DNA from: Flavipsychrobacter stenotrophus
GTDB taxonomy: Bacteria; Bacteroidota; Bacteroidia; Chitinophagales; Chitinophagaceae
Direction: 5' to 3'
Length of the DNA: 32,518 nt
Assembly: GCA_945902755.1 (NCBI GenBank)
Contig: CAMDNC010000016.1
Span: 1-32,518, forward strand
Positions 23,837-31,491 of this stretch are shown in pieces. Made by a program: the position numbers and the translations under genes. The notes under the pieces are model-generated. The model was not told the origin of the DNA and did no database searches. It saw only the letters and a program-made list of their open reading frames with translations. How positions within the stretch are numbered: the first letter of the stretch is position 1; the number at the start of each line of letters is the position of its first letter.

Positions 23837-24964
23837 ATGTTAAAAGTAGCATGGAAGTTTATCAGGTTCGACAAAGCAAAGAGTATAGGGGTGATAGTAG
23901 GGATATTGATAAGCACTTTTCTGATAGGACAGCAATTGGGTGTTTTTTTCTTTCTCTCTGGTCTTATGGGGGCATTAGCAACAGATGTGAAAGCCGATAT
24001 ATGGGTAGTTGATAGCAAAACAAATGATGTAAATCAACTGGGAAGAATTGATGTAAGAAATCTCAGAGCAGTGCAGGGTATAAGTGGTATAAAGGAAGCA
24101 TTCCCAATACTTATATCTGGGGCATCGTGCAACTATGAAAACGGCACAAGCGGGGCTATTACACTAATAGGTGTGGATGCAAATCAGTTGAATTCAGTAT
24201 TGCTGCCCAGCAAAATAAATGAAGGTAAAACAGCAGATCTACAAACAGATGGAGCAGTAAGTGGAGAGTACTATGAAAAGAAAAATCTGGGTGGGAAAAT
24301 AGACGTTGGTACAGACTTTGAGATCAATGGTAAACGAGCTTTTTTCGCAGTGCAGACGAAGGGCTTTCGTGGTTTTGGTAGTAGCTTTTGTGTCACTACT
24401 ATAGAGCGGGCAAGATATTATTCTAATCAGCCAGTAAGTACTATCAGTGCAGTATTAGTCAATCTACAGCCGGGCGCAAACATAGATGAAGTAGTGGCTA
24501 ACATTAACGCTACAGTCAATGGTGTAAAAGCTTGGCCAGCACCACAACTTGCAGCGTCGTCTGTAAAGAAAATACTATCGAGTAGCGGGATAGCACTGAG
24601 CACAGGTACACTTATAATATTTGCACTCATAGCAGGTTTCTTTATCATTGGGCTAACGATGTATTCATCTGCATTAGATAGGCTCAAAGACTATGGTACA
24701 CTAAAAGCAATAGGTGCAGGTAATGCATACATCACTCGTCTCATACTTACACAGGCCTTACTGTTTTCGGTAGTAGGTTTTCTTATAGGGCTTGCATTGT
24801 TAGAGGGTTTTCGACAAGGAGTAGCCAATTCAGGTTTGATATTCTCGTTTTCCCCTTTGATGTTGCTTGGCATGTTTACTACTATAGGACTTATATCGCT
24901 GAGTGGGGCATCATTTGCTCTGAGTAGAATAAGGAGTGTAGAGCCAGCAGCGGTTTTTAGGTGA
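23837..24964 (+). CDS. FtsX-type ABC permease of a DevC/MacB-like exporter
   Basis: A 375-residue permease with one N-terminal transmembrane helix (about 16-37), a large periplasmic domain (about 40-255) and three C-terminal helices (about 260-280, 305-328, 340-360): the four-helix FtsX/MacB layout. The start MLKVAWKFIRFDKAKSIGVI and the coupling region RLKDYGTLKAIGAGNAYI are typical. Length is near that of DevC (about 385) and shorter than MacB (about 640), which carries its ATPase fused; here the ATPase is separate. It lies four bases downstream of the adaptor gene. The substrate is not evident; DevBCA exports a glycolipid in cyanobacteria, MacAB exports macrolides and toxins. Confidence 0.92.
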   Translation: MLKVAWKFIRFDKAKSIGVIVGILISTFLIGQQLGVFFFLSGLMGALATDVKADIWVVDSKTNDVNQLGRIDVRNLRAVQGISGIKEAFPILISGASCNYENGTSGAITLIGVDANQLNSVLLPSKINEGKTADLQTDGAVSGEYYEKKNLGGKIDVGTDFEINGKRAFFAVQTKGFRGFGSSFCVTTIERARYYSNQPVSTISAVLVNLQPGANIDEVVANINATVNGVKAWPAPQLAASSVKKILSSSGIALSTGTLIIFALIAGFFIIGLTMYSSALDRLKDYGTLKAIGAGNAYITRLILTQALLFSVVGFLIGLALLEGFRQGVANSGLIFSFSPLMLLGMFTTIGLISLSGASFALSRIRSVEPAAVFR

Positions 24965-24984
24965 TTTTTCTAAATGATTATTTT

Positions 24985-26367
24985 ATGAATAAAGTACCTT
25001 CTTTTATGTTTACCGTCAGGCTTCATTTCTGTTGGGCTATTGCTATTATGCTGCTATTGGCTGCTTCTGGTGCAGCAAGTGGGCAAGGTGTAGTAACGCT
25101 GTCGCAGGCTATAAACAATGCTTTCTCAAACAGGAAAAATATACAAGCAGGCAAATCTAATCAAACAATTCGCCAGCTACAAACTGCTGCTTTGTATCGG
25201 AAATATTGGCCGCAAGTAAATGCAGAATATACTTACCTCTATAATCCTATTTTGCAAACGTCTATTTTGCCAATAGGGGTTTTTAATCCAGCTTATCCAG
25301 CCGATGCCACCAAGAGTGTTCAGTTCGGGACAACATGGTCGCAGGCAGCAGGTGTTACCGTTAGTCAGCCAATATTAGACTTGTCTATCAACAGACAAAT
25401 CAACGAATCGAAATTACAAGAGCGAATAGCTGCCGCTACACAAGCACAAACAGAATATGAACTAGCGTATACGGTTGCTCAGGTTTATTTTGACATCTAC
25501 TTGCAGCAATCTAAGATTCAATCGGCCATTGCAGATACTAACCGTACATGGCTCAGTTATCAATTATTGCAAAATGAGTTTGAACAGAAACGGTTGCTGA
25601 AGTCAGCACTCAATAAAGGAAAAATCAATCATAACAATGCAGTAGAAATCTTCAGAAATGCAGTAGCACAACTGATAGAAGATAAGGTGTATCTGCTTTT
25701 TTTAATAGGACAAAACGATATCGAACATGCTGATGTTATAGTGGATACAAGCTTTATGAGGAGTGGTAAAATTGTGATTAATACTGTTCAGCCAGTTGTA
25801 GCTAATATCCCCGAGTTGCGAGAGCTGGAGCTGAAAGGCGAAATGGCTAGGGTGCAAACTGCCACAGAGAAGGCTAAGTATATGCCCACCGTAAGTATGA
25901 AAGGGTATCTAGGTGCCAATCAGTTCACTAACAACTTCGACCCTATAGCTGCTAATTCGTGGTTTGGGCTTAGTTATGTGGGTCTTAATGTAAAGTATCC
26001 GTTACTCTTTGGGGAGGATAAACACAGAAAAATACAACAATACAAAGTACAAGCTACACAGTATGGACAGCAAAAAGAGGATAAAGCTGCACAGTACTAC
26101 AAAGATGCCCTTACCGCAAAAATAAAAGTAGAGTTGGCAATGACTGCGCTAAAAACGCAGCAAGATAATCTTGCACTTAGTGTCGAGACTATTGCTATTC
26201 TACAGTTGCGTGTAGCTGAGGGGCAAGAATCTGCTTCAACTCTGAATATAGAAGAGGCAGATTTACAAAAACTAAATGCTGAATACGAAAGTAGTAAAAT
26301 GCAATACTGGCTCTCTTTTCTCAATTATCTAAAAGCATCAGGAACGCTGGAGATATTGTGGAAATAG
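24985..26367 (+). CDS. TolC-family outer membrane efflux protein
   Basis: A 460-residue TolC-like protein that forms the outer-membrane duct of the exporter. The signal peptide ends near GAASGQG. Two repeated halves show the typical long helices with alternating Gln/Ala-rich turns: VTLSQAINNAFSNRKNIQAG at the start, and YFDIYLQQSKIQSA in the first coiled coil; QQKEDKAAQYYKDALTAKIK and LRVAEGQESASTLNIEEADL in the second. The open frame extends to a GTG at 24961, which overlaps the permease stop. I prefer the ATG at 24985 because it gives a better signal peptide and 20-base spacing, but the GTG remains possible. It is the last gene of the operon; no clear terminator follows. Confidence 0.93.
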   Translation: MNKVPSFMFTVRLHFCWAIAIMLLLAASGAASGQGVVTLSQAINNAFSNRKNIQAGKSNQTIRQLQTAALYRKYWPQVNAEYTYLYNPILQTSILPIGVFNPAYPADATKSVQFGTTWSQAAGVTVSQPILDLSINRQINESKLQERIAAATQAQTEYELAYTVAQVYFDIYLQQSKIQSAIADTNRTWLSYQLLQNEFEQKRLLKSALNKGKINHNNAVEIFRNAVAQLIEDKVYLLFLIGQNDIEHADVIVDTSFMRSGKIVINTVQPVVANIPELRELELKGEMARVQTATEKAKYMPTVSMKGYLGANQFTNNFDPIAANSWFGLSYVGLNVKYPLLFGEDKHRKIQQYKVQATQYGQQKEDKAAQYYKDALTAKIKVELAMTALKTQQDNLALSVETIAILQLRVAEGQESASTLNIEEADLQKLNAEYESSKMQYWLSFLNYLKASGTLEILWK

Positions 26368-26431
26368 TACAACACATAATGAATAGCTGCTGACATTTTA
26401 TTTTGCTCCTATCAATAGCTTGCAAGTATGT

Positions 26432-26439
26432 TATATTTG
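26432..26439 (+). promoter_or_regulatory. -7 promoter box of the YdeI-family gene
   Basis: TATATTTG, a perfect TAnnTTTG box, ends 12 bases before the ATG at 26452. TTG candidates lie at 9 and 26 bases, neither at the normal distance. Confidence 0.5.
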
Positions 26440-26451
26440 TGAGCTATAAGT

Positions 26452-27027
26452 ATGGCAGCAGGTATCGAAATATTTTACCCAACTGGTAGAGCGGAGTGGC
26501 GTGGGTGGTTACATCAGCATCACAATACTTATCAATCTATCTGGCTGCTGTATTACAAGAAAAACGCCAACAAACCAACCATTTCTTACACCCATGCCGT
26601 GGATGAGGCATTGTGTTATGGCTGGATAGACAGTAAAGTAAAATCAGTAGATGAATATTCCTACCTACAGTTTTTCTGTCGCCGAAAACCAGATAGTGTG
26701 TGGTCGAAGGTAAACAAAGAAAAAGTACAACATCTCATAGATGCAGGCTTGATGGCTGATGCAGGAAGGGCTGTAATAGAAGTAGCCAAGGCTAATGGCA
26801 CATGGACCATACTAGATGATGTTGAGGCATTAATAACCCCGCCCGACCTTGAAGTTGCTCTTGCATCTTATCCGCTAGCAGCAACGTTTTTTCACAACCT
26901 TAGCCGTACCGATAAGCGAAACATATTGCAATGGATAGTCCTTGCTAAAAAAGCAGAAACCCGAACACGGCGCATAGCCGAGGTAGCAGCACTGGCGCAG
27001 CAGTTACGTAAGCCAGCTCAGTTTTAA
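26452..27027 (+). CDS. YdeI/OmpD-associated family protein
   Basis: A 191-residue soluble protein of the YdeI family, whose members in enterobacteria are tied to antimicrobial peptide resistance; the biochemical activity is not established. Family motifs seen: the start EIFYPTGRAEWRGWL, then SIWLLYYKKNANKPTISYTHAVDEALCYGWIDS split over about residues 29-61, with the CYGWID block the most typical, followed by FFCRRKPDSVWSKVNKEKV. The C-terminus is helical and basic (KRNILQWIVLAKKAETRTRRI), the pattern often labelled OmdA. No signal peptide is present. It is transcribed alone, rightward, and converges with the porin gene. Confidence 0.9.
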   Translation: MAAGIEIFYPTGRAEWRGWLHQHHNTYQSIWLLYYKKNANKPTISYTHAVDEALCYGWIDSKVKSVDEYSYLQFFCRRKPDSVWSKVNKEKVQHLIDAGLMADAGRAVIEVAKANGTWTILDDVEALITPPDLEVALASYPLAATFFHNLSRTDKRNILQWIVLAKKAETRTRRIAEVAALAQQLRKPAQF

Positions 27028-27078
27028 TAAGGATATTTGATCTAAATTTAGCTAGTGGGCTTCACTATACTTATTCCA

Positions 27079-28299
27079 CTAAAAATAGCTAGAGAACCCT
27101 GCCTGAAACCCTGCTGTGCGCTGGGCAGGATTGCCAAGTAGGTCGGTTTGTAGGTTGTAGCGATAGTTGACTCTTATTACTGTTTGTCCGCTAGGTCGCC
27201 AGCTTATGGCTGGTACTACACTTACAAAGTGATCGGCAATATTGCTACCTGTTTGTGCAAATGTGCCTACATTCCAGTCTACATACTCTAGGCGGCAGGC
27301 TATGTTTATTACAGACTCATCAAAGCCCAGTAAAGGTTTGCGATACACAGGCTGCACTATGTCTGCAAAACCTCCATGCTGGCGACGGCCATACTGCTCG
27401 CTGTAGGTAGGTGGCACATCGGTGCTCACCCATGCCCATTCTCCTGTTATAAAAGTGTTACTTCTTGGTATCGTAGTGTTGGCATCTACTGCTACAACAT
27501 TTATGCTGCGTCGCTTGTCAAGCACAAAGCCATCTTGCTCAAATTTGTTGTATACCCCACCCATGTATGATACACCTAGCTCTGCTATATTGCGATGACG
27601 CACAGCACCCTTGGCTGTTATCATGGGAACGCCATTATAGCTCTCTTCAAATCTATCTCTGTTCAGTTTAGTAGCTGGCAAGAAGGTACGTCCGTTAGTA
27701 TTGTCTATTATCCGGTTGTCAAATCCGTTGGTAGCATATACCTCATATGCCAGCACCCAGTCCTTTTTATACTGCTTACCATATACCCCAAAGCCTACAT
27801 TGCTCCATGTAGCAGGCAGCATAGCTACTGCCGATGTAGGACGATCTACAAACTCCCACTTAGGGCCATCGTGGTTTTGATTGAAGGCGCCTATGGGATT
27901 CATGATGATACCTCCTCTGAGGTTCAGCATGGGGTGAAATTCCATGTCTACCGCCGCAAACTCTATGTTTATCTCTTTTGTTCCATCTTCAAATTCCAGT
28001 TCCGACAAAAACTTCAGTCTTTTTCCTATACTTGACGATACAAACAAAGTCATTCGCTGCATCTGGAACTGGTGCCCGTCTGTTATGCCTTCTGTGCCCA
28101 GGTGTTGCCAGTTGGCCTCGGCATAGCCTCCTAGGGCCACAGGTAGTTTGCCCATGCTCAGAAAAGGTCTGTTGTACACAGCATCCATGTTCAGTTGCAT
28201 ATCGTTTTTGGTAGCAGGTTTGCGTCGCAGCAGAGTGCTATCAATCTGGGCATAAGCAGTGCCAGTAAGGCACAGTAGTAAGCATAGTATTCTTCGCAT
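27079..28299 (-). CDS. Outer-membrane porin of the OprO/OprP-like type
   Basis: A 406-residue beta-barrel protein. The signal peptide is about residues 1-17 (ending TAYAQ), and the mature chain alternates hydrophobic and polar residues to a final phenylalanine (SSYF), the C-terminal signal recognised by the BAM complex. The segment FLSELEFEDGTKEINIEF and later RGGIIMNPIGAFNQNHDGPKWEF resemble porins of the phosphate-selective OprO/P family. An Asp-rich region lies in the N-terminal third. It is the third gene of an operon with a diheme lipoprotein and a Rieske lipoprotein: its ATG overlaps the Rieske stop by one base (TGATG), suggesting translational coupling. Substrate is not known; phosphate is not implied by sequence alone. 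Confidence 0.85.
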   Translation of the reverse strand: MRRILCLLLCLTGTAYAQIDSTLLRRKPATKNDMQLNMDAVYNRPFLSMGKLPVALGGYAEANWQHLGTEGITDGHQFQMQRMTLFVSSSIGKRLKFLSELEFEDGTKEINIEFAAVDMEFHPMLNLRGGIIMNPIGAFNQNHDGPKWEFVDRPTSAVAMLPATWSNVGFGVYGKQYKKDWVLAYEVYATNGFDNRIIDNTNGRTFLPATKLNRDRFEESYNGVPMITAKGAVRHRNIAELGVSYMGGVYNKFEQDGFVLDKRRSINVVAVDANTTIPRSNTFITGEWAWVSTDVPPTYSEQYGRRQHGGFADIVQPVYRKPLLGFDESVINIACRLEYVDWNVGTFAQTGSNIADHFVSVVPAISWRPSGQTVIRVNYRYNLQTDLLGNPAQRTAGFQAGFSSYF

Positions 28300-28739
28300 C
28301 AGGTTTGTTTTCTCAGGTCTATCAATAATTGTCTGTTGGTCATCGTTACCGGAAAAGTGCGCAGTGGCTCCTTTGCTGGCGATTGGGTTACCTTACCCCA
28401 TTTGTCAAATTCGCTGCCATGTGCCGCACAGGTCAGTTGGTCGCCCGATGCTTGCAGTTCTACACCTTGATGCGTACACCGCATCAGCAATGCGCTATAT
28501 TGGCCATTGCCTAGGTTATACACACATACGGGGTATTGCAGGTCATCATGTCGCACTATGATGTAGGGGCGTTGGGTGTTTTTATCTGTCACAAACTCTT
28601 TAGGGTCTATGAGTATGCCATTTTCATTGCGGGTGCCCTTGGTATACTTGGTGCTTACACAGCTTTGTAGCACCGATGCGCCAATAGCTATACCCATGCA
28701 GGCTATACATCCGTTTCTAATAAATTCTTTCCGATTCAT
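28299..28739 (-). CDS. Rieske [2Fe-2S] lipoprotein
   Basis: A 146-residue exported protein with a Rieske cluster. The ligand motifs are CTHQG (Cys88, His90) and CAAHGSEF (Cys104, His107). The N-terminus has RKEFIRNG followed by a hydrophobic segment and the lipobox LQSC (Cys27), so it looks like a lipoprotein; the Arg-Lys pair could be a weak Tat signal, as in other Rieske proteins, but this is not certain. The small size and absence of a catalytic domain suggest electron transfer rather than dioxygenase activity. It lies five bases after the diheme gene and overlaps the porin gene by one base. The rest of a bc1 complex is not encoded here. Confidence 0.92.
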   Translation of the reverse strand: MNRKEFIRNGCIACMGIAIGASVLQSCVSTKYTKGTRNENGILIDPKEFVTDKNTQRPYIIVRHDDLQYPVCVYNLGNGQYSALLMRCTHQGVELQASGDQLTCAAHGSEFDKWGKVTQSPAKEPLRTFPVTMTNRQLLIDLRKQT

Positions 28740-28744
28740 AATCT

Positions 28745-29944
28745 TTAGAGGCTTTCCAGAAAAGTAAGCATTTTTTTCTTGTCACTCTCAGGCAGTGCAT
28801 TGTATTTATTACGGCTATTGGTAGCCTCACCTCCATGGAGCATTATGGCATCTTGTATGCTGTGTGCTCTGCCGTCATGCAACAAAAAGTAGCTACCCCC
28901 TTGCGAGTTTTTAGATAGCCCCAGTCCCCACAGGGCAGGTGTGCGCCACTCGGCTGTTGTTGCCATGCCTTCAGTATAGCCATCGTCTAGGCCAGGTCCC
29001 ATGTCATGCATCAGCATATCTGTATAGGGGTAAAAGGACTGGTAGCTTAGTGGGGCAATGGGTGAATATCCGGTTTTTAATTCTGGTTTGTGGCATTTGG
29101 CACAGTCTGCTTGTACAAAGAGTTGTTTGCCAGCTACTACATCTGGGTGAGTAGGGTTGCGCTGTATGGGCGCTTTTAGTGTTTGTAGATAAAACACTAC
29201 ATCGTTTAGGGTTTGGGTACTTACTTCAGGGTCTATTTCCAGGCCAGTGTAGGTGTCTATAGGTTCATACAGCGACGATATGCCCATGTCTTGGTTATAG
29301 GCACTGGCAGTTTGTTGCATGAGGTTATAAGCACCCGCTTTTTTGCCAAATCTGCCTATGCACTTGCCATTTTTAGTTACTGCGCCATCTTGAAGGTTGA
29401 TGTAGTTTTTGATAGGTATCCAGTTTACAGTGCCGCTTATGCCATCACCATCAGCATCGGTCGGGTCGGACATTGCCAGCAGGTCTTGGTCGGTTACTGC
29501 CTCTAGGTAGCCCACTCCGGTGTTAGCAGGAGGCATTAGTCGGGTAAAGGTAGCGCCTTCAGGTAGTTTTTCTGGTTCGAAGCCGGGTAGCGCTCTGTGT
29601 TGTAGTTGGGGTGCTCCCTTCGTCAAGTATTTATTGCCAGTGCTGTCTGTTTGCCCAAAGCGGGTTAGTGTAGAGAAGGGATGCCCCTTGCCATCGCCTG
29701 CATGGCAACTACCACACGATGTGGCAACAAATATTGGTCCCAGGCCAGTTTCACTGGTAAATATTTCGTCATTAAATGCTACATCACCTCGAAGAAATAT
29801 AATATTCTGTGCAGGCGTTAACCCCTCCACTGGGCCATCTAGTATGGCTTCATTGGCAGGGGCAGATGGTTGTACTTTTTTGCAGGAGCTAACTATGGTA
29901 TAGCCAGCCAGCCCCAACAGCAAAAAAACAGTGATACGCTTCAT
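28745..29944 (-). CDS. Diheme oxidoreductase-like lipoprotein (DUF1111/DHOR family)
   Basis: A 399-residue protein with two c-type haem sites, CGSCH (77-81) and CAKCH (281-285). It belongs to the DHOR family, often labelled 'thiol oxidoreductase' and related to diheme peroxidases. The N-terminus is a lipoprotein signal with lipobox VSSC (Cys21). A Ca-binding-like loop DPTDADGDGISG lies at 160-171, and HDMGPGLDDGYTEG and EWRTPALWGLG are family blocks. I start it at the ATG at 29944, not the upstream frame to 29983: the first gives a proper lipobox spacing. In other bacteria DHOR genes lie beside imelysin and iron-uptake genes; here the neighbours are Rieske and porin genes. Electron donor and acceptor are unknown. 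Confidence 0.92.
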   Translation of the reverse strand: MKRITVFLLLGLAGYTIVSSCKKVQPSAPANEAILDGPVEGLTPAQNIIFLRGDVAFNDEIFTSETGLGPIFVATSCGSCHAGDGKGHPFSTLTRFGQTDSTGNKYLTKGAPQLQHRALPGFEPEKLPEGATFTRLMPPANTGVGYLEAVTDQDLLAMSDPTDADGDGISGTVNWIPIKNYINLQDGAVTKNGKCIGRFGKKAGAYNLMQQTASAYNQDMGISSLYEPIDTYTGLEIDPEVSTQTLNDVVFYLQTLKAPIQRNPTHPDVVAGKQLFVQADCAKCHKPELKTGYSPIAPLSYQSFYPYTDMLMHDMGPGLDDGYTEGMATTAEWRTPALWGLGLSKNSQGGSYFLLHDGRAHSIQDAIMLHGGEATNSRNKYNALPESDKKKMLTFLESL

Positions 29945-29962
29945 TATTAAAGTATTGCACAG

Positions 29963-29970
29963 CAAAGATA
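29963..29970 (-). promoter_or_regulatory. -7 promoter box of the diheme-Rieske-porin operon
   Basis: The reverse strand reads TATCTTTG, a perfect TAnnTTTG box, 18 bases before the ATG at 29944. It supports that start over 29983, which would place the promoter inside the coding region. No good -33 element is visible. Confidence 0.55.
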
Positions 29971-29994
29971 TAAAATTAGGCAAGACTAAAAATA

Positions 29995-30002
29995 TAATTT
30001 TG
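29995..30002 (+). promoter_or_regulatory. Possible -7 box of the TonB-domain gene
   Basis: TAATTTTG fits TAnnTTTG, but it lies 77 bases before the ATG at 30080 and has no clear -33 element. Less sure than the other boxes. Confidence 0.3.
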
Positions 30003-30079
30003 TGATTGCTTATTCTTGCGTTTAGTTGATTTATGAACGTTATGATGGCGGGTGTGCATGAAATGGACTAAATTGCATT

Positions 30080-30469
30080 ATGAAAACTTTGAAGACACTA
30101 CTGATATTTATAATCACTGCAGGTAGTATTTCGGTATCTGCCCAAACTGCAACTAAGCCCACTCAGCCCGAGTATCCGGGTGGGTTGCCAGCTATCGAGG
30201 CATTTCTTACACAGCAGCTCATGTACCCTGAGCAGGCACACAAACAAGGTATAGAGGGCAGAGTAGTGGTAGGGTTTATGATCAATGAACAAGGCAGGGT
30301 GGTGAGTCCTAAAATAGTGAAAAGCATACATCCAGCACTAGACAGTGAGGCAGTACGTGTGGTGCAACTTATGCCTCGCTGGAAACCCGGTATGAAGGAT
30401 AAAAAACCAATTGTAGCACCCGTGGTTCTGCCTATAGTTTTTGAGCTTACGGGTAAGGCTGCTAAGTGA
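30080..30469 (+). CDS. Small exported TonB C-terminal domain protein
   Basis: A 129-residue protein with a signal peptide (about 1-21, ending VSAQ) followed almost directly by a TonB C-terminal domain: FLTQQLMYPEQAHKQGIEGRVVVGFMI (in parts), RVVSPKIVKSIHPALDSEAVRVV and MPRWKPG. In energy transducer TonB proteins this domain contacts the TonB box of outer-membrane receptors; normally a cytoplasmic-membrane anchor and a Pro-rich spacer precede it. Here both are missing, unless the signal peptide stays uncleaved and acts as the anchor, leaving a spacer of only about 20 residues. No exbB or exbD is adjacent. Similar short proteins are common in Bacteroidota; their role is unclear. Confidence 0.87.
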   Translation: MKTLKTLLIFIITAGSISVSAQTATKPTQPEYPGGLPAIEAFLTQQLMYPEQAHKQGIEGRVVVGFMINEQGRVVSPKIVKSIHPALDSEAVRVVQLMPRWKPGMKDKKPIVAPVVLPIVFELTGKAAK

Positions 30470-30543
30470 TACTGTTATAATATTGTCAATATTGCTGGTC
30501 TGTCATTCTGTTTTCGTTATTTTGCACCTATTATAGCACACTT

Positions 30544-31491
30544 ATGACTATTTCTAAAGAAGTAAGAATCGGTCTCCTGGTAGCAATAGCGGGGGTGATT
30601 TTCTTTGCTGGTTTTTCTTTTTTAAAAGGATCAGATGTTTTCTCCAGTGAAAGTGAGTTTTACTGTTATTACCCTTCAGTAGATGGATTGCAAAAATCAT
30701 CTATAGTTCAAGTCAAAGGTATCAATATAGGTCAGGTGGCTGATATGGAGCTAGCTGGAGAGAAAGGCGTTAAAGTCATATTGTCTATACACAACAGTGT
30801 TAAGATACCCGAAGGAACTATAGCTAACCTAGCCTCGTCAGACTTGCTGGGAACAAAAGTAATAAGACTGGATATGGGCAAAGGGCCAGCTACAATGCCT
30901 GCCAAATCTGTACTGGAATCTAAAAAAGATGGCAGTATGGTAGATAAACTATCGGGCGAGCTTACCCCTAGGCTTGAAGAACTGAAGGGTACAATAATAG
31001 CATTCAACCAAGCACTCAACAATGTAAATGCGCTGGTGGGCGATGAAAACCAAAAAGCCATTACAGGTGCTATACAGTCGCTCAAGGCCACTTCTGATAA
31101 TCTGGCTCATCTATCTGCCGCTATAGATAAAGAAAGCGGGCAAATAAGCAGCATTCTGCGCAACGCCAATAGCGTAACAGCCAACCTTGCTAAAAGCAAC
31201 GACACAGTGCAGCGCATACTGTCAAATACCAGCCGCATAACAGGCCAACTAGCTAACGCACCTATACAAAAAACCCTTGCAGACCTGCAAAAAACGACGG
31301 CTCAGCTACAGAGCATAATGGATAAGATAAATAATAATCAGGGGTCGCTAGGTATGTTCATCAATAATAAAGATGCCTACAACAATCTGAATAATTCACT
31401 GAAATCAATTACCAATCTTACCGACGACCTCAAGGCTAGGCCTAGCAGGTACATCAATGTCAGTGTTTTCGGAGGTAAGAAGAAAGACTAA
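30544..31491 (+). CDS. MCE/MlaD-family lipid-transport protein
   Basis: A 315-residue protein with a short cytosolic start, one transmembrane helix (about 8-26) and an MCE domain (about 36-114): FYCYYPSVDGLQKSSIVQVKGINIGQV (in parts), then SSDLLGTKVIRL. MlaD-type proteins form hexameric rings in the periplasm and carry phospholipids between membranes with an ABC transporter. The remaining 190 residues are helical with heptad-like repeats (KATSDNLAHLSAAIDKES; LQKTTAQLQSIMDKI), suggesting a long periplasmic coiled coil, more like Mce/PqiB-type needles than E. coli MlaD (183 residues). No mlaE or mlaF lies in the window. The stop overlaps the next ATG by one base. Confidence 0.92.
   Translation: MTISKEVRIGLLVAIAGVIFFAGFSFLKGSDVFSSESEFYCYYPSVDGLQKSSIVQVKGINIGQVADMELAGEKGVKVILSIHNSVKIPEGTIANLASSDLLGTKVIRLDMGKGPATMPAKSVLESKKDGSMVDKLSGELTPRLEELKGTIIAFNQALNNVNALVGDENQKAITGAIQSLKATSDNLAHLSAAIDKESGQISSILRNANSVTANLAKSNDTVQRILSNTSRITGQLANAPIQKTLADLQKTTAQLQSIMDKINNNQGSLGMFINNKDAYNNLNNSLKSITNLTDDLKARPSRYINVSVFGGKKKD

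Follow-up and report, generated by a model that had tools for sequence, protein, structure and literature searches.

The DNA analysed here, referred to as the window, is a stretch of 32,518 nucleotides from Flavipsychrobacter stenotrophus (Bacteroidota; GenBank assembly GCA_945902755.1, contig CAMDNC010000016.1). Its minus strand carries a three-gene operon that encodes a predicted lipoprotein of the DHOR family with two haem-binding sites, a Rieske [2Fe-2S] lipoprotein and, as last gene, an outer-membrane porin (Table 1). We describe the products of this DHOR-Rieske-porin trio, its conservation, the signals found in its promoter and its genetic association with divalent-metal importers.

The operon and its three products

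An earlier note on this DNA, made from the letters and reading frames, had described a tight leftward operon with two CxxCH sites, a Rieske motif, a porin ending in Phe, a short intergenic gap and an overlap, and all these elements were confirmed. Five bases (28740-28744) separate the DHOR and Rieske genes, the Rieske stop and the porin start share TGATG, and the porin ends with ...SSYF. Of the porin gene, which extends to 27079, the interval then given for the operon (28297-29970) covers no more than the first bases. The proposed -7 box was found at its place, and so were the lipoboxes of both redox proteins, whose cysteines (Cys21 in DHOR and Cys27 in Rieske) are conserved in all the sequences that were aligned (43 DHORs and 25 Rieske proteins).

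Table 1. Features of the trio operon and of its promoter (positions refer to the window).
Feature	Position	Strand	Remarks
DHOR (PF06537), 399 aa, predicted lipoprotein, first gene of the operon	28745..29944	-	two CxxCH in 81/81; Cys21 in 43/43
Haem site 1, CGSCH, residues 77-81	29702..29716	-	C77, C80, H81 invariant (43-DHOR alignment)
Haem site 2, CAKCH, residues 281-285	29090..29104	-	C281, C284, H285 invariant (43-DHOR alignment)
Rieske [2Fe-2S] lipoprotein, 146 aa; N-terminus NRKEFIR, twin-arginine-like	28299..28739	-	
Rieske ligand box 1, CTH, residues 88-90	28470..28478	-	C88, H90 invariant (25-Rieske alignment)
Rieske ligand box 2, CAAH, residues 104-107	28419..28430	-	C104, H107 invariant (25-Rieske alignment)
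Outer-membrane porin, 406 aa, predicted 16-strand barrel, fold nearest OprP/OprO	27079..28299	-	
Porin stretch NPIGAFNQNHDGPKWEFVDRP..., residues 134-165, between predicted strands 5 and 6	27805..27900	-	place of a pore-constricting loop
DtxR/MntR-type operator-like palindrome TTAGGCAAGACTAA	29976..29989	.	
Bacteroidota-type -7 promoter element TATCTTTG	29963..29970	-	5 bases downstream of the palindrome

The DHOR frame, read from the ATG at 29944, matched PF06537 with 210 bits (cut-off 22), and the Rieske frame matched PF00355 with 47.2 bits (cut-off 20.3) and carries the ligand motif CTH...CAAHG, which places each protein in its family. None of the three proteins scored above a cut-off in NCBIfam. 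Exactly two CxxCH sites, and a Cys ahead of the LDG with which the domain starts, are present in all 81 DHORs considered, namely that of the window and those of the 80 loci described below. The structural model of the DHOR is of low confidence, with a mean predicted local distance difference test score (pLDDT) of 68.9 and values below 50 for residues 69-141. The best fold match of this weak model is MauG crystallised with its substrate protein (Z 9.9, 3.9 Å, 228 residues); di-haem cytochrome c peroxidases match with Z about 7 to 9.5, 6e1c, a MauG-like protein linked to copper homeostasis, is among the other matches, and the best Foldseek E value is 8.5e-3. Since the model is too weak, the axial ligands of the haems are unreadable. 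The modelled likeness to MauG and to di-haem peroxidases fits the Pfam name of the family and leaves the activity undecided.

The N-terminus of the Rieske protein follows the pattern R[RK]xF[ILV], which we take to resemble a twin-arginine (Tat) export motif, in 74 of 81 sequences. The nearest solved structure is a b6f subunit. The extra Cys pair of bc1-type proteins is missing from the Rieske of the window, as from 64 of the 81 in total, and both cysteines are present in the other 17. Within one conserved gene order, these extra cysteines of the cluster loop (window residues 88-107) always occur both or neither, so that the potential of the Rieske cluster may differ between members.

The porin of the window matched no Pfam family at E 1e-3, the phosphate-selective porins O/P (PF07396) included. 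Its AlphaFold2 model (mean pLDDT 85.7) is predicted to contain 16 strands of at least 3 residues. In the VIA-align comparison, which speaks only of the families that it lists and leaves others possible, the model matched OprP/OprO of Pseudomonas with Z 26.6-26.9 over 314-318 residues (root-mean-square deviation 3.5-3.8 Å); the top ranks of Foldseek were held by PorB and others. The trio porin thus shares with OprP/OprO the predicted 16-strand fold, but the identity is 10-11%. In the porin set, formed by the 75 of 87 sequences that reached at least 380 aa (12 shorter ones were dropped), NHDGP is present in 75/75 and the C-terminal Phe in 74/75. Conservation is among the highest in the segment that joins strands 5 and 6, where N134, F139, N140, N142, H143, D144, G145, P146, W148 and R153 are identical in all 75 porins. 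Glu100, Glu102, Glu104 and Glu113 are also invariant and alternate along the strands, which in the model suggests an acidic pore wall, in contrast to the arginine ladder that the title of 2o4v ascribes to OprP. In two plasmid records the porin is annotated as 'hypothetical protein'.

Recurrence of the gene order and relation to imelysin clusters

Loci were compared in three sets. The main set consists of the best 80 of 266 DHOR relatives, one genome per species being scanned; genomes filed as the culturable Chitinophaga pinensis, Pedobacter caeni and Flavobacterium palustre are among those with the trio. The phylum sample consists of 345 Bacteroidota genomes, 55 of which gave a DHOR match; 30 loci were kept, the window among them, and 29 of these (L133-L161, i.e. 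the window and 28 other genomes), with a whole-length DHOR match, are its triad loci. The order sample comprises eight loci with a short DHOR (L025-L032) and 22 with a long one (L003-L024), and has the window and two genomes in common with the phylum sample.

The Rieske gene is next after the DHOR gene in 80/80 loci of the main set, and the porin gene then follows in 78; the other two loci (L051 and L083) end at contig edges, and four of the 78 porins are cut or split. In the phylum sample the corresponding figures are 29/29 and 28/29, the locus without porin (genome G306) lying at a contig edge, and all eight short-DHOR loci of the order sample have the trio order. Since it recurs in 80 loci, the one-strand order DHOR-Rieske-porin is not due to chance, and the arrangement is not unique to this genome, an eventuality that the earlier note had raised.

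The same note had pointed to imelysin as the usual companion of DHOR proteins. This hint is apt for the family; it marks, however, a longer DHOR, of about 460 aa (L003-L024 and L162) as compared to about 400 aa in the triad, beside which an imelysin gene was found in 22 of 23 loci; the profile used was derived from four of these 23. The flanks of the 80 triad loci gave a single weak match at an edge (29.6 bits), and the profile found no imelysin in the window. The only imelysin gene of this genome lies on contig C40 and the trio on C16, and 16 of the 29 triad genomes have no imelysin gene at all.

Four long-DHOR loci were read at longer range. Three of them (L163-L165), from the window's own family, have the order porin-Rieske-imelysin-DHOR, and their Rieske and porin proteins scored 93-100 and 53-71 bits, respectively, against the triad profiles; the L165 porin, a paralogue, matched PF07396 only with E 0.047. 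In the fourth (L166), imelysin and DHOR are accompanied by a porin with a weak score, and there is no Rieske. Because the Rieske and porin of these clusters score with the triad profiles, the trio resembles a sister form of the imelysin clusters that lacks imelysin. Neighbourhoods of imelysin and DUF1111 (DHOR) have been described and linked to iron uptake (PMC3143127). With respect to the four clusters, the trio has in common the DHOR family protein and, in three of the four, a related Rieske and porin, whereas it differs by the absence of imelysin, the shorter DHOR and the reversed gene order; moreover, the DtxR-type box of the triad, described below, was not seen at L163-L166 apart from two distant matches. 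An imelysin-type arrangement was also noticed outside Bacteroidota, on plasmid pTT27 of Thermus thermophilus HB27 (L285), where a DHOR with 37% identity follows iron ABC transporter and imelysin genes.

Promoter box and association with DtxR and metal importers

The palindrome upstream of the trio is of the DtxR/MntR-box type. Its exact form, TTAGN6CTAA, was found in 63 of the 80 triad promoters of the main set, as compared to 1 of 384 control promoter regions, taken from other genes of the same loci (regions below 370 bases and genes below 150 aa were dropped), and to about 1.0 in 80 expected from Markov shuffles. Among the 17 promoters without the exact box, 13 have TTWGN6CWAA, mostly as TTTGG..CCAAA, in a count made without control. 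In the phylum sample the exact box is present at 19 of the 29 triad loci. A TANNTTTG element lies within 42 bases downstream in 33 of the 63 exact-box loci, and a spacing of 5 bases is the commonest (12/33); this distance between the palindrome and the -7 element fits a repressor that would block the promoter.

A DtxR-family gene lies divergent to the trio in 38 of the 80 loci (37 identified by clustering and L052 by BLAST; one member was named by Pfam, flanking clusters being named each from one member). The exact box is present in 39 of the 42 loci without an adjacent dtxR as compared to 24 of the 38 with it, and several dtxR-adjacent loci use the TTTGG variant. On the strength of the shared promoter box, the operon looks like a member of a DtxR/MntR regulon, with predicted binding of the repressor. 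The present genome has a single DtxR-family gene, on contig C29 (L130:5002-5658). Its product has Glu (HDIAEQLEH) at the position of Cys102 of DtxR, a residue number that we assume for this comparison, and its matches among solved structures are, in order, a metal-dependent regulator, a putative iron-dependent repressor, SloR and ScaR; we take the last two to be Mn regulators.

The box and the trio were both found together with genes of metal importers. In this genome, the gene of an Nramp importer carries a TTAGGATAGCCTAA box 26 bp upstream; this importer, with a universal-stress-protein (Usp) domain fused at its C-terminus, is encoded at G000:C97:11785-13656 (L188, L227). The exact box precedes Nramp-Usp in 6 of the 10 genomes that have this fusion, the present one included. 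By coordinates, Nramp-Usp also adjoins dtxR in 6 of the 10 fusion genomes. In 5 of the 29 phylum-sample loci (G329, G340, G306, in which the locus is cut before the porin, G436 and G201) the triad forms the end of an operon dtxR-dtxR2-feoB, with feoB split. In G436 and G201 the exact box lies 14 and 20 bp, respectively, before dtxR, the first gene of this operon. Five genomes (L169:3968-7973 and L257-L260) were seen to have feoB split into separate GTPase and transporter genes, with two DtxR-type genes before them, and the second DtxR-type gene of L169 has an N-terminal extension and FeoA domains. Genome G278 has the order DHOR-Rieske-porin-NrampUsp-dtxR, and in G294 the triad has dtxR on one side and a ZnuA-type ABC importer on the other, FeoB being encoded further upstream (names of representatives by Pfam). 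In four more of the 29 loci dtxR is divergent to the triad. The sole triad genome without DtxR, G397, has the box neither at the triad nor at its Nramp gene; four other genomes, which have DtxR and do not belong to the feoB group, also lack the triad box. The boxes and operons shared with importers make, as far as sequence can tell, the strong part of the evidence.

At the scale of whole genomes, raw counts of the box are not enriched and therefore only its location is informative. The tight pattern gave 19 sites in five other genomes, and 16 of them were inspected, the other three being without a locus: 8 are located in the promoter of dtxR, of Nramp, of a TonB receptor gene or of the triad, 6 fall within genes and 2 are unclear. 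In the present genome the tight pattern was counted 2 times, as compared to 7 in the reversed control. The second of these two matches, at C120:9465, was taken as chance; it overlaps the start of a frame read by eye as NuoE/F. A perfect palindrome, TTAGGTGTGCCTAA, was noticed at C144:8215-8228 (L131:3216-3229), upstream of a cyclic-nucleotide-binding regulator and a TonB-dependent receptor gene; it is a possible further member of the regulon and was left out of the counts.

Proposed role and alternatives

The gene order of the trio, its shared box, its operons in common with importers and its likeness to the porin-Rieske-imelysin-DHOR clusters are results of computation. As the three genes are kept together under what appears to be a Mn/Fe switch, they probably aid the uptake of these metals. 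The best overall explanation, to which we give a probability of roughly 0.55, is that the trio provides a DtxR-controlled uptake of Mn(II)/Fe(II) with its components in the outer membrane and the periplasm, the redox pair working in the reducing direction. Its two parts do not stand equally firm: that the operon is a module of metal uptake is very probable, while a reductive step, in which the redox pair reduces the metal, falls a little short of an even chance. The earlier note had proposed an electron-transfer chain that changes the redox state of a solute, for example a metal, entering through the porin; the role in metal handling is supported by the box, the DtxR neighbour and the FeoB and Nramp operons, which point to Mn(II)/Fe(II) uptake, whereas the redox change is still conjecture.

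We infer the binding of the repressor to the box, the identity of the metal, its passage through the porin and the flow of electrons towards it, and the system might operate as follows. Under scarcity of the metal, the DtxR-family repressor would come off the TTAG..CTAA box, allowing transcription of the operon and of the gene for an importer of the inner membrane, which would be Nramp in this genome and FeoB, Nramp or a metal ABC importer of the ZnuA type in relatives. The porin would let the metal, free or as a small complex, across the outer membrane, and the lipid-anchored Rieske and DHOR proteins behind it would donate electrons, so that Mn(III/IV) or Fe(III) would arrive at the importer as a transportable divalent ion. 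Since the importers carry divalent ions, reduction of the metal by the redox pair is more likely than its oxidation. Both Mn(II) and Fe(II) are plausible cargoes of FeoB, Nramp and ABC importers, and we make no choice between them. More tentatively, the trio might represent an unnamed and widespread 'reductive gate' of Bacteroidota, i.e. a porin-Rieske-DHOR complex that reduces Mn(III/IV)/Fe(III) and hands Mn(II)/Fe(II) over to the importer. If so, the trio would act as a metal reductase of the assimilatory kind, with a genetic link to Feo/Nramp uptake. Feo and Nramp carry divalent ions, and in oxygenated water Fe and Mn are mostly oxidised; to our knowledge, the source of Fe(II)/Mn(II) for these importers in the Gram-negative envelope is poorly defined. 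The trio, predicted to be under the repressor of the importers, offers a concrete candidate for this supply that can be deleted in culturable bacteria.

A number of observations weigh against this proposal. The exact box is absent from 17 of the 80 triad loci and from 10 of the 29 in the phylum sample; the feoB operons of G329 and G306 have no exact box in the stretch searched, and the only one of G340 is intragenic. Counts in whole genomes are below those of the reversed control, both with one mismatch (37 vs. 62) and with the tight pattern in the five other genomes (19 vs. 47), and any function of the box, in whatever organism, is deduced from its letters. The DtxR gene of the present genome is on another contig than the trio, and the presence of DtxR in 28 of the 29 triad genomes is modest evidence because the family is common in the phylum (241 of 345 genomes). 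Queries with FeoB, Nramp-Usp, ZnuA and ABC-3 (one each, E 1e-10) found no importer in the flanks of the 80 loci (up to 6 kb), where four generic ABC ATPases matched, so that operons with an importer are known only from the larger phylum sample. The net charge of the porin (mean +1.0) does not tell cation from anion selectivity. The modelled fold relatives of DHOR include peroxidases, and haem and FeS proteins would be costly to make for importing iron under iron starvation. Lastly, heavy-metal or mercury genes lie near 36 of the 80 loci.

The main rival to a reducing redox pair is a peroxidase guard, rather unlikely in our view, in which DHOR would take electrons from Rieske and remove H2O2 at the periplasmic mouth of the channel, so as to protect both the cell and the Fe(II)/Mn(II) on its way in once the antioxidant enzymes that depend on metal fail. 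The Pfam label of PF06537 is 'putative peroxidase', the fold matches of DHOR to MauG and to di-haem cytochrome c peroxidases point the same way, and a guard of this kind would be expected to belong to the same metal regulon when Mn or Fe is lacking; those matches come, however, from a low-confidence model with unreadable axial ligands, and a peroxidase alone leaves the tight coupling to the porin, FeoB or Nramp unexplained. The fold match to MauG with its substrate protein also lends something to the idea that DHOR oxidises residues of a partner protein, with Rieske relaying electrons and the porin merely co-transcribed. We consider this very improbable, given that no extra partner gene is fixed at the loci (after dtxR, in 37 loci, the largest flanking cluster occurs in 23 of 80) and that Z values near 10 can be reached by mostly helical models without true kinship.

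A part in a resistance island, where the trio would oxidise or reduce Cu, Hg or another toxic metal, is improbable too, though it has the heavy-metal genes in its favour. Clusters of CzcA/CusA, P1B-ATPase, CusB, ArsR, MerT/MerC or DUF6660 occur in the flanks of 36 of the 80 loci, at least two of them in 29, and 20 of the 38 dtxR-adjacent loci are among those with such clusters; plasmid copies of the trio in Haliscomenobacter and Hymenobacter adjoin heavy-metal genes, and the copper-linked 6e1c is among the fold matches of DHOR. Yet these clusters are missing from 44 of the 80 loci and from 18 of the 38 with adjacent dtxR, eight cluster representatives matched no protein frame of the window, and the FeoB and Nramp operons with their shared box suit metal nutrition better. 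Considering the flanking genes and the plasmid copies, some copies of the trio may have a role with toxic metals. Least probable of all is ordinary respiratory electron transfer, with the trio as a substitute for complex III or cytochrome c. Rieske proteins and cytochromes c are indeed the electron carriers of bc1/b6f, and a b6f subunit is the nearest solved match of the Rieske. In contrast, no cytochrome b or c1 was found among the eight window proteins scanned or the ten recurrent flanking clusters annotated across triad loci, the Rieske of the window is a small lipoprotein without the extra Cys pair, and neither the porin nor the DtxR-type box fits.

The respiratory reading has a precedent in the literature. 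In Bizionia argentinensis, loss of MliR lowers the expression of the genes BZARG_RS03005 (Rieske) and BZARG_RS03000 (cytochrome c), together with those for imelysin, a TonB receptor and metal transporters, and the Fe, Mn and Zn content of the cells is reduced. The authors assign the pair to the respiratory chain, as complex III and cytochrome c (PMC9478572). The consecutive locus tags fit the trio, of which this pair may be a counterpart; if it is, the case speaks for the uptake proposal. Should the pair prove to be the trio, the expression data of that paper would gain a reading different from the respiratory one.

Text searches of the literature, with subscription papers mostly outside their reach, found no account of a DHOR-Rieske-porin trio, and the known systems resemble it in part. 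MtrCAB conduits are formed by a porin and a c-type cytochrome encoded in one operon, a large barrel surrounding a multihaem wire; the trio has the same kind of operon, but its barrel is predicted to have 16 strands and its two-haem lipoprotein is separate. MnoP is the outer-membrane Mn channel of Bradyrhizobium, and MnoT is a TonB receptor (review PMC9334652). Compared by description, the trio porin, predicted to be co-regulated with Nramp, would likewise be an outer-membrane channel for Mn uptake, and differs by its coupling to two redox lipoproteins and a DtxR-type box. The regulator of MnoP is of the Fur type. In the EfeUOB ferrous iron system a haem protein stands beside a periplasmic metal carrier and a permease, and a redox change of iron has been proposed (PMC3143127). 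The trio shares the haem protein with metal-uptake partners and the proposed redox change; it differs in that no EfeU (Ftr1-type) or EfeO was found among the neighbours scanned in the window, that its importers are FeoB, Nramp or ABC, and that Rieske and porin are added.

The genes around the operon encode, by Pfam, FtsX/MacB-like, OEP, OmdA-like, TonB-C and MlaD proteins. The Pfam scan of eight window proteins (23837-31491) gave no Ftr1, imelysin, cytochrome b or c1, and when representative DtxR, heavy-metal, FeoB, Nramp and metal-ABC proteins and the imelysin profile were run against the entire window, generic ABC ATPases were the only matches. Two other loci were noticed. The contig of L052, labelled Williamsia sp., an actinobacterium, has the trio at 64% identity and is probably a mislabelled or contaminated metagenome-assembled genome. 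On a Hymenobacter plasmid (L284:7046-7570) a ferritin gene is divergent to the trio, in the place where dtxR sits elsewhere.

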